From: Nocardioides iriomotensis
GTDB taxonomy: Bacteria > Actinomycetota > Actinomycetes > Propionibacteriales > Nocardioidaceae
Assembly: GCF_004168035.1 (NCBI RefSeq)
Contig: NZ_SDPU01000020.1
Span: forward strand, 372,001-436,000
Direction: 5' to 3'
DNA length: 64,000 nucleotides
The position numbers were made by a program, and so were the translations under genes. Below are positions 49,927 to 52,875 of the stretch, piece by piece. Within the stretch, counting starts at the first letter, position 1. The number at the start of each line of letters is the position of its first letter. The notes under the pieces were generated by a model. The model searched no databases. It saw only the letters and a program-made list of their open reading frames with translations, and was not told the origin of the DNA.

Positions 49927-50646
49927 ATGACACGTGCCGACGGCCGCCAGAACGACGAGCTCCGCCCGATCACGATCACGCGCGGCTGGCTCGACCACGC
50001 CGCGGGGTCCGTGCTGGTGGAGTTCGGCCGCACCCGCGTCCTCTGCGCGGCGTCCGCGACCGAGGGCGTGCCCCGCTGGCGCAAGGGCTCCGGGCTCGGC
50101 TGGGTGACCGCGGAGTACGCCATGCTCCCGGCCTCGACCAACACCCGCTCCGACCGCGAGTCGGTCAAGGGCCGCATCGGCGGGCGCACCCACGAGATCT
50201 CTCGGCTGATCGGGCGGTCGCTCCGTGCGGTCATCGACTACAAGGCGCTCGGGGAGAACACCATCGTCCTCGACTGCGACGTGCTGCAGGCCGACGGCGG
50301 CACCCGCACCGCCGCGATCACCGGGGCGTACGTCGCCCTCGCCGACGCCGTCGCCCACCTCAAGGGCCGGGGCGCCCTCACCGGCGACCCCCTGCTCGGC
50401 TCCGTGGCGGCGGTCTCGGTCGGCATCATCGACGGCGAGCCGCGGCTCGACCTGCCCTACGAGGAGGACGTGCGCGCCGAGACCGACATGAACGTCGTCA
50501 TGACCGGCGACGGCAGGTACATCGAGGTCCAGGGCACCGCCGAGGGCGCCCCCTTCGACCGCCCGCTCCTCGACGGGCTGCTCGGTCTCGCCGAGAAGGG
50601 CTGCGCCGACCTGACCGCGATCCAGCGCACGGCGCTCGCCGGATGA
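49927..50646 (+). CDS. rph: Ribonuclease PH
   Basis: A 239-residue phosphorolytic 3'-5' exoribonuclease trimming tRNA 3' ends. It has [19 protein letters not shown], phosphate-site Arg residues in [33 protein letters not shown], and [20 protein letters not shown] and [11 protein letters not shown]. It resumes the conserved block after the 20-kb insertion (Rv1340 position) and overlaps rdgB as ATGA. Confidence 0.96.
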
Positions 50647-51296
50647 CCGACGGCGACCAGCGGGTCCAGGTCTTCGTGGCGTCCCGCAACGCGAAGAAGA
50701 TCGCCGAGATGCAGCGCCTGCTCGAGCAGCACGTGCCCGACATCCAGGTGCTCGGTCTCGACGACGTCGCGCCCTACGACGAGCCGGCGGAGACCGAGCC
50801 GACGTTCGAGGGCAACGCGCTGATCAAGGTCCGCGCCGGCGTCGCGGCGACCGGCCTACCGTCGATCGCCGACGACTCCGGCCTCTGCGTGGACGCGCTC
50901 AACGGCATGCCCGGCGTGCTGTCCGCCCGCTGGGCCGGCACGGCCAAGGACGACGCCGCCAACAACGACCTCCTGCTGCAGCAGCTCGAGGACGTGCCCG
51001 ACGAGCGACGCGGCGCGCACTTCACCTGCGCGGTCGCCTTCGGCTACCCGGTCGGGGCCGGCGGGATCTCCGAGCACGTCGTCCACGGCGAGATGCGCGG
51101 CCGGGTGATCCGCGAGCTGCGCGGCGACGGCGGGTTCGGGTACGACGTCCTCTTCGTCGCCGACGACACGGTGGCGGGGGGCGACTGCCACACGTCCGCG
51201 GAGCTCGACCCCGATGCCAAGGACGCCATCTCCCACCGCGGCAAGGCGCTGCGTGCGATCGCGCCCGTGGTCGCCGACGTGCTCACGGGGCTGTGA
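50643..51296 (+). CDS. rdgB: XTP/dITP diphosphatase (RdgB/HAM1)
   Basis: A 217-residue house-cleaning nucleotide pyrophosphatase removing inosine and xanthosine triphosphates. Motifs are [52 protein letters not shown] and the C-terminal [11 protein letters not shown]. The position after rph is conserved. It is coupled to the nucleosidase gene by GTGA, forming an rph-rdgB-nucleosidase operon for nucleotide and RNA clean-up. Confidence 0.95.
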
Positions 51297-51835
51297 CGGT
51301 CCTCGTCGTCACGGCCACCGAGGCCGAGGCCGCCCACGTCCTCGCCGGGTTCGACGTGGTCGTCACCGGCCTCGGCAAGACCGCCGCGGCCGTCGCCACG
51401 ACCTGCGCGCTGCTCGAGCGTGACCGCGCCGGCCTGACCGTCGTCAACATCGGCACCGCCGGCGCGCTCCGGCCCGGTGTCGAGGGGCTGCACGAGGTCG
51501 GCACCGTGCTCAACCACGACATCAGCGCCGCCGCGATCCGGGCGCTCGGCTACGACCCCGAGGACGAGCTGGAGATCGGCCCGTCGGCGGTCGTGCTCGC
51601 CTCCGGCGACGTCTTCGTCAGCGACCCCGCGGTCCGTGACGCGCTGGCCGCGCGGGCCCACCTCGTCGACATGGAGGGCTACGCCGTGGCCTACGCGTGC
51701 CGGCGGCTCGCCGTACCCGTGCGGCTGGTCAAGCACGTCTCCGACGCTGCCGACGAGTCCGCGCTCGACTGGCCGGCGATGATCGAGCGCAGCGCCCGCG
51801 CGCTCGGGGCGTGGCTGGCTCAGGCGCCCGGGTAG
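51293..51835 (+). CDS. Purine nucleosidase / phosphorylase-superfamily protein (MTAN-like)
   Basis: A 180-residue protein, short for the family (~230). It has the PNP/UDP superfamily fold: VVTGLGKTAAAVATTCAL, VNIGTAGALRPG, DMEGYAVAYACRRLAVPVRLVKHVSD (Glu of the ME(G) motif binding ribose) and the SDAADESAL acid region. It probably cleaves 5'-methylthioadenosine, S-adenosylhomocysteine or a related nucleoside. GTG start overlapping rdgB; the 3' end overlaps the convergent GNAT gene by 16 bp. Confidence 0.85.
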   Translation: MTVLVVTATEAEAAHVLAGFDVVVTGLGKTAAAVATTCALLERDRAGLTVVNIGTAGALRPGVEGLHEVGTVLNHDISAAAIRALGYDPEDELEIGPSAVVLASGDVFVSDPAVRDALAARAHLVDMEGYAVAYACRRLAVPVRLVKHVSDAADESALDWPAMIERSARALGAWLAQAPG

Positions 51836-52221
51836 ATCCGGAAGCCCGACATCCGCTTGTGCTCGAACTCCGCGTAGAACCCCTGCGCGGAGTCGGTGAT
51901 CAGGTCCATCCGCTTGGTGCCGGTGGCCTGGAACGTCGCCGTCACCAGCAGCCGCGCGATCCCGCGCCGGCGGTGCTCGGGGTGCACCGCCACGAACGAC
52001 AGGTGGGACTGCAGCACCCCGTCACCCAGCGCCTGCGCCCAGCCGACGAGTGAGCCCTCGGCCACCGCGACGTACGCCGCCGCGCCCTGCGCCGTGCACA
52101 CCTGCCGGACGACGGCGGGGTCGGTGAGCGAGGGCCACTGGACGGTCGTCGACAGCCGGGCGATCCCGGCGGCGTCGCCGTCCTCGAACGGCCGGATATC
52201 CACGGTGCTCACGACTCGCAC
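51820..52221 (-). CDS. GNAT family N-acetyltransferase
   Basis: A 133-residue single-domain acetyltransferase. The N-terminal DIRPFEDGDAAGIARL is followed by the acetyl-CoA site FVAVHPEHRRRGIARLLV (about residues 74-91) and the C-terminal GFYAEFEHKRMSGFRIY. The acceptor is unknown. It sits between the nucleosidase (tail-to-tail) and the tRNA gene (same strand, 39 bp upstream of it). Confidence 0.87.
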   Translation of the reverse strand: MRVVSTVDIRPFEDGDAAGIARLSTTVQWPSLTDPAVVRQVCTAQGAAAYVAVAEGSLVGWAQALGDGVLQSHLSFVAVHPEHRRRGIARLLVTATFQATGTKRMDLITDSAQGFYAEFEHKRMSGFRIYPGA

Positions 52222-52260: not shown

Positions 52261-52338
52261 TGGTGCGCCCGGCGAGACTCGAACTCGCACTGCGCAGGAC
52301 CTAAACCTGCTGCCTCCTGCCAATTGGGCTACGGGCGC
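52261..52338 (-). tRNA. tRNA with UAG anticodon (tRNA-Leu by anticodon) but a short variable loop
   Basis: A 78-nt cloverleaf with encoded CCA. Acceptor GCGCCCG/CGGGCGC is a perfect 7-bp stem with discriminator A; the D-arm GCC...GGC has an enlarged loop of 12 nt. Anticodon stem GCAGG/CCTGC encloses TTTAGGT, giving anticodon UAG; the variable loop is GCAGT (5 nt); the T-arm GCGAG/CTCGC has TTCGAGT. UAG reads CUA/CUG, so leucine by code. Bacterial leucine tRNAs normally have a long class II variable arm, absent here. The identity is therefore open. Confidence 0.85.
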
Positions 52339-52398
52339 GCCCGGCCAGTGTAGGGAGCGAGCGCCCGCTCCCTGCACTCCCGGCGCGCGACCCGTCGG

Positions 52399-52875
52399 TC
52401 AGGACGCGAGCCCGAGGTCCTTGCGCAGCTTGGCGACGTGCCCGGTCGCCTTGACGTTGTACTGCGCGACCTCGACCCTGCCGTCCTCGCCGATGACCAG
52501 TGTCGAGCGGATCACGCCCTCGACGACCTTGCCGTAGAGCTTCTTCTCGCCGTACGCGCCCCAGGCCTTCATGACCTTCTTGTCCGCGTCGGAGAGCAGG
52601 GTGATGGTGAGGCCGTCGCGCTCGCGGAACTTCGCCAGCTTCTCGGGCTTGTCGGGGGAGACGCCGAGCACCTCGTAGCCGGAGGCGTGCAGCGAGTCGA
52701 GGGAGTCGGTGAAGTCGCAGGCCTGCTTGGTGCACCCCGGGGTCATCGCGGCCGGGTAGAAGTACACGATCACCTTCTTGCCCTGGAGGTCCGACAGGGT
52801 GACCGTCTCGCCGGTGTCGGTCGGCAGCGTGAAGTCGGGGGCGCGGTCGCCCGGCTCGAGGCGGGTCTGGGGCAT
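52399..52875 (-). CDS. bcp: Thiol peroxidase Bcp (PrxQ family)
   Basis: A 158-residue thioredoxin-dependent peroxiredoxin. Peroxidatic Cys48 and resolving Cys53 lie in AAMTPGCTKQACDF, the five-residue spacing of atypical 2-Cys PrxQ. GDRAPDFTLPTDTG, GVSPDKPEKLAKF and R117 in GVIRSTLVIGEDG also fit. It reduces H2O2 and organic hydroperoxides. It is divergent from the metal transporter operon across 127 bp with a Nur-like palindrome, which might also affect it. Confidence 0.94.
   Translation of the reverse strand: MPQTRLEPGDRAPDFTLPTDTGETVTLSDLQGKKVIVYFYPAAMTPGCTKQACDFTDSLDSLHASGYEVLGVSPDKPEKLAKFRERDGLTITLLSDADKKVMKAWGAYGEKKLYGKVVEGVIRSTLVIGEDGRVEVAQYNVKATGHVAKLRKDLGLAS

Follow-up and report, generated by a model that had tools for sequence, protein, structure and literature searches.

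The window, that is, the whole stretch of 64,000 nucleotides of Nocardioides iriomotensis DNA analysed here, carries a single tRNA gene, identified by ARAGORN as tRNA-Leu(TAG) on the reverse strand at 52261-52338. Its immediate neighbours are a GNAT acetyltransferase gene and bcp, and rdgB lies about 1 kb off, past a PNP_UDP_1 gene (Table 1).

Table 1. Features of the tRNA-Leu(UAG) locus (positions of the window)
Feature	Position	Strand	Evidence
Class I tRNA-Leu(UAG), entire gene with encoded CCA	52261..52338	-	ARAGORN; Rfam RF00005, 52.6 bits
Discriminator A73 (52264) and encoded CCA (52261-52263)	52261..52264	-	Sequence
Variable loop GCAGU, 5 nt, U48 last	52289..52293	-	Sequence read-out
Anticodon UAG within loop UUUAGGU	52301..52303	-	ARAGORN position 36
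D-arm GCCC-AAUUGGCAGG-AGGC-A	52311..52329	-	Sequence read-out; family signature
Putative -10-like element TACACT, 8 nt upstream of the tRNA	52347..52352	-	Comparison of upstream regions
bcp-like peroxiredoxin, same-strand upstream neighbour and conserved locus marker	52399..52875	-	Pfam AhpC-TSA, Redoxin
GNAT acetyltransferase, downstream neighbour	51820..52221	-	Pfam Acetyltransf_7/_1
rdgB (Ham1 family), conserved locus marker	50643..51296	+	Pfam Ham1p_like; synteny
rph, before rdgB	49927-50646		Pfam RNase_PH

A preliminary description of this DNA had claimed a complete cloverleaf with perfect acceptor, anticodon and T stems, a UAG anticodon, a variable loop of five nucleotides and an encoded CCA, and all of this is borne out by ARAGORN, by the Rfam tRNA model RF00005 (E 1.9e-08) and by a read-out of the sequence. 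The acceptor stem (GCGCCCG/CGGGCGC) consists of seven perfect base pairs and is followed by UA at positions 8-9, and the anticodon arm (GCAGG-UUUAGGU-CCUGC) and the T-arm (GCGAG-UUCGAGU-CUCGC) each have a perfect 5-bp stem. The D stem is made of three pairs and an unpaired C13-A22, and the D-arm bears A14, A15, G18G19 and A20a; the D loop is indeed enlarged, as had been noticed, because C13-A22 is unpaired and one extra G is present. With a variable loop within 4-5 nt, a 7-bp acceptor and a 5-bp T stem the molecule belongs to class I; its five nucleotides fall short of the variable arm of at least 10 nt that defines class II, and its 7+5 arrangement of acceptor and T stems is not the 8+4 or 9+3 of allo-tRNAs. 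Across 46 related UAG genes of class I, pairing of the acceptor, anticodon and T stems holds in all but one cell of the comparison in spite of numerous compensatory changes, and C13-A22 fails to pair in every gene (46/46). This covariation of the stems rules out a chance fold, and the gene is a real and intact class I tRNA gene.

The genome of N. iriomotensis examined (4.7 Mb in 47 contigs, with completeness given as 100%) has 45 tRNAs, five of them for leucine, when ARAGORN is applied to its tRNA loci. The CAA, GAG and CAG tRNA-Leu are of class II with long variable arms, and those with UAG and UAA are of class I with short loops. The only tRNA-Leu with a UAA anticodon (G000:C5:38682-38756, L043/L070) has the same D-arm as the UAG tRNA, so that both U34 leucine tRNAs of this organism are short. 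No second UAG or UAA tRNA gene is found among the 45, and the two short forms are consequently the only cognate-anticodon readers of CUA and UUA. A normal class II tRNA-Leu(UAG) elsewhere in the genome had been proposed as a sign of a special role; such a gene is absent both from the 45 tRNAs and from a pattern search. As the sole UAG tRNA, the molecule is, as far as can be read from sequence, the lineage variant against which that special role had been set. In the same genome, tRNA-Gln(UUG) (L039 98-179) has the lowest score of the 45, 40.1 bits, with a length of 82 nt according to ARAGORN. LeuRS is encoded by one full-length frame of 854 aa, which scores above the curated family cut-off and has leucyl editing and anticodon-binding domains.

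In Escherichia coli, leucine identity depends on A73, A15-U48, G18G19, A20a and contacts between the D and T loops (Giege and Eriani, PMC9976931), and the UAG tRNA has every one of these nucleotide determinants. The full set of A14-A15, U48, A73 and A20a occurs in the genome only in the five leucine tRNAs. According to one review, LeuRS uses A73 together with the long variable stem-loop (PMC11295145), a view which would predict trouble for a tRNA-Leu with a short loop; in E. coli, on the other hand, the sequence and folding of the variable arm show no correlation with charging, and armless variants are active (PMC9976931). The native LeuRS would thus be expected to charge the UAG tRNA as the E. 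coli enzyme charges armless variants, presumably by reading A73 and the D/T-loop core, with the variable arm unneeded as in the E. coli experiments.

The meaning of the codons was assessed in ORFs from the window, from other stretches of the same genome and, for 15 relatives, from stretches round the class I UAG gene. In these ORFs, which were called by GC3, CUA occurs about 1.0 time and UUA 0.18 times per 1000 codons. Where at least five homologues were available, leucine was the majority residue at 14 of 16 CUA sites and at 5 of 6 UUA sites, small numbers which come mostly from relatives and not from N. iriomotensis itself; the rate of leucine majority for comparison was 0.88 at CUG and about 2% at non-leucine codons. 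The aligned CUA sites therefore favour leucine, and reassignment or misreading of CUA is not indicated. Charging by another synthetase such as LysRS or AlaRS, by which CUA would be misread or ambiguous, could appeal to the A15-U48 and A73 that the Lys and Ala tRNAs of the genome, both of class I, share with the UAG tRNA. These tRNAs, however, are without A20a and the C13-A22 core, the UAG anticodon is wrong for LysRS, no non-leucine residue exceeds 5 of 42 CUA sites, and the clean swap with class II tRNA-Leu at one locus, described below, is hard to reconcile with a changed amino acid; this explanation is very improbable. Slightly less probable still is a tRNA whose UAG anticodon is incidental and whose role is specialised or non-decoding (regulatory, cell-wall or stress-related). 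The unusual shape and the rarity of CUA would suit such a molecule, but the genome has no other UAG-anticodon tRNA to read CUA, which is present 30 times in the ORFs sampled from this genome, and the tRNA has the standard anticodon loop of Leu(UAG) tRNAs, common to the class II genes.

The UAG tRNA thus combines a leucine anticodon, A73, the E. coli core and a cognate codon that aligns with leucine in homologues. The most probable reading, given a probability of roughly 93%, is that it is a normal decoder of CUA built on a class I frame and leucylated by the single ordinary LeuRS. The three options of the preliminary description fare accordingly unequally: acceptance of this shape by LeuRS is favoured by the lack of a class II UAG gene in the genome, the leucine-like behaviour of CUA and the swapping of the two forms at one locus, and charging by another synthetase and a specialised or non-decoding tRNA are both disfavoured. 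Support is lacking for a special, non-decoding or misreading role.

Of the genomes of 58 relatives, 20 carry a class I UAG gene and 33 a class II UAG gene, and the two coincide in a single genome (Fisher p 3e-9), so the two forms are almost mutually exclusive; in the exception (G046), the class I copy sits among several other tRNA genes. The suggestion of a possibly conserved position next to rdgB and bcp proved right, since both UAG forms are found at this locus in relatives. Class I UAG genes have bcp beside them in 29 of 58 cases and rdgB/rph in 33 of 58, and class II UAG genes have bcp in 22 of 43 and rdgB/rph in 13 of 43. None of 170 UAA genes lies there. Furthermore, a TANNNT element occurs 4-14 nt upstream of 27/47 class I and 22/38 class II UAG genes, compared with 0-7 in equally wide control windows; this comparison of upstream regions did better than a generic sigma-70 scan, which gave no match. 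The tRNA would be transcribed from its own conserved site beside bcp.

The presence of both UAG forms at bcp/rdgB, often with the same -10-like element, implies that one replaced the other in place: the locus is constant, and probably the promoter too, while the tRNA body switches class. A recent duplication of the UAA gene to a new site was rejected, as the UAG gene occupies the UAG locus common to the class II genes. On a tree of Bcp proteins (a gene tree of 156 columns) the class label switches nine times, at least five of these changes being forced by well-supported branches, which speaks against a single origin; the switch apparently happened more than once. Should bcp have moved between lineages, this count would lose weight, but the shared locus would not. 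Class I tRNA-Leu would accordingly have replaced class II genes in place in actinobacteria, here for both UAG and UAA, and for UAA the replacement is suggested by its distribution.

The class I genes form a family whose signature is a fixed D-arm, GCCC-AA..GGCAGAGGC, with an invariant C13·A22 mismatch and a short variable loop. Since the surveys used exact patterns, their counts are lower bounds: the D-arm with a five-base variable loop was found in 73 of 396 sampled Actinomycetota genomes, where a reversed control pattern gave zero matches, and in a scan of named genomes at least 118 stretches matched. Among the matches listed from the latter, ARAGORN gave at least 96 class I Leu(UAA) and at least 23 Leu(UAG) genes. 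Most come from Actinomycetota (Microbacteriaceae, Nocardiaceae, Mycobacteriaceae, Micrococcaceae, Nocardioidaceae, Pseudonocardiaceae, Acidimicrobiales and others); outside this phylum, at least one to three each were found in Chloroflexota, Acidobacteriota, Planctomycetota, Rokubacteria, Myxococcota, Cyanobacteriota and Bacillota, in several instances in MAGs. In the 396-genome sample, a CAA anticodon is carried on the class I frame in 23 genomes, and neither CAG nor GAG was found on it in chromosomes. A73, A15 and U48 are invariant in all 175 class I Leu(UAR) tRNAs parsed.

Some further observations concern the members of this family. Class I tRNA-Leu(CAA) genes (L363-L368 and other matches) fall mostly in genomes of family f7, and also in f32, f19 and two f6 genomes; the class I UAA genes of family f7 match those at named Mycobacterium loci. 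A stretch of a Chloroflexaceae MAG (L172 56-4411) holds 26 tRNA genes, with class I Leu (CAA and UAA) and class II Leu (GAG and CAG) together. Class I Leu(UAA) follows tRNA-Cys in MAGs of Rokubacteria (L150 384-670, with tRNA-Gly ahead), Deltaproteobacteria (L173 1499-1655) and Planctomycetota (L147 216-780). This arrangement is reminiscent of the glyW-cysT-leuZ order of E. coli. In Mycobacterium tuberculosis, tRNA-Leu-2, -3 and -5 are stated to have long variable loops, and the others are unmentioned (2024, PMC11541572); class I UAA and CAA tRNAs there would fit this statement.

The family also extends to phages. Phage records matching the UAG tRNA number 242 and those matching the UAA form 344, some of them being cross-hits to other tRNAs, and the best phage matches listed are 80-86% identical to the UAG tRNA. 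Among the viral matches listed, in a scan selected for the family frame, class I leucine tRNAs have UAA, UAG, CAA, CAG and GAG anticodons. A class I Leu(CAG) of Mycobacterium phage BeanWater and a class I Leu(UAG) of Streptomyces phage Sushi23 carry the D-arm of the UAG tRNA, and both nest among the Nocardioidaceae UAG genes in a weak tree of 65 columns whose bootstrap values leave the branching unsettled; no ancestral isotype of the family is singled out by this tree. Separately, one stretch of the BeanWater genome (L355 1501-1844) holds three short-loop tRNA-Leu (CAG, GAG and CAA), and two D-arms among them are unlike GCCCAA. Phages may have spread the class I form, and the class I gene could tentatively be derived from a phage-borne tRNA instead of conversion from the chromosomal class I UAA gene or stepwise loss of the arm in place. 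This origin, for which the number of matching phage records and the nesting of the BeanWater and Sushi23 copies speak, is rather doubtful: the direction of transfer is unreadable from 65 columns, phages may have acquired the gene from their hosts, and gene conversion accounts equally well for a class I gene placed precisely at the class II UAG locus with the same element upstream of it. A still more speculative and unlikely proposal is that phage-borne class I tRNA-Leu repeatedly took over the rare-codon leucine genes of Actinomycetota in place with benefit to the host; if true, the host might, for example, evade nucleases or toxins that take hold of the tRNA by its long variable arm.

Reviews describe cytosolic tRNA-Leu as having a long variable arm (PMC9976931). 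Named genomes of Mycobacterium, Nocardia and Corynebacterium, among other Actinomycetota, have at least one leucine isoacceptor without it, and the compact tRNA-Leu, which is widespread among Actinobacteria and the phages that infect them, seems to be a normal replacement that has been adopted repeatedly. The armless isoacceptors are a natural experiment consistent with a LeuRS that can do without the arm; they also call for caution with isotype classifiers built on a long-armed tRNA-Leu, and bear on toxins that sort tRNAs by the variable arm. Moreover, the purpose of the long arm becomes directly testable, because both forms stand at one locus in close relatives. The main interest lies in this wider pattern of repeated in-place replacement across the phylum, the UAG tRNA itself being an ordinary decoder of unusual shape.

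As to earlier knowledge, the taking over of class II charging functions by class I structures has been mentioned in general terms (Sun and Caetano-Anolles, PMC2265525), short-loop tRNA-Leu is known in mitochondria (PMC9976931) and an example from a mycobacterial tRNA cluster has been mentioned briefly (PMC6582537). No description of the present bacterial class I tRNA-Leu family was found in the open-access literature, although specialists in mycobacterial tRNA may already know it. The mycobacterial case, a tRNA-Leu(TAG) of the Mycobacterium mucogenicum/phocaicum cluster, is alike by description in its short variable loop and UAG anticodon; unlike the gene studied here, it accompanies a normal class II UAG gene as an additional copy and lies in a tRNA cluster that also contains an HNH endonuclease gene (PMC6582537). 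The phage class I tRNA-Leu (BeanWater CAG, Sushi23 UAG) share the D-arm, the 5-nt loop and about 82-86% identity, but lie within phage tRNA arrays and include CAG anticodons. Mammalian mitochondrial tRNA-Leu(UUR) is likewise charged without a long variable arm, with A73 and A14 as main determinants (PMC9976931), although its LeuRS and core are different, whereas the complete E. coli identity core is retained in the bacterial form. Also close is the bacterial class II tRNA-Leu(UAG), such as that at the bcp/rdgB locus of related Nocardioidaceae, which has in common not only the locus and the upstream element but also the UUUAGGU loop, A73, A14-A15, G18G19-N-A20a, A22 and U48. The two differ in the variable region (a 5-nt loop versus a 13-15-nt arm), in the D stem (GCCC/GGC with C13-A22 versus GYGG/CRC with G13-A22) and at position 9 (A9 versus G9). 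The bacterial class I family is best filed as a variant of tRNA-Leu and not as a new kind of molecule.
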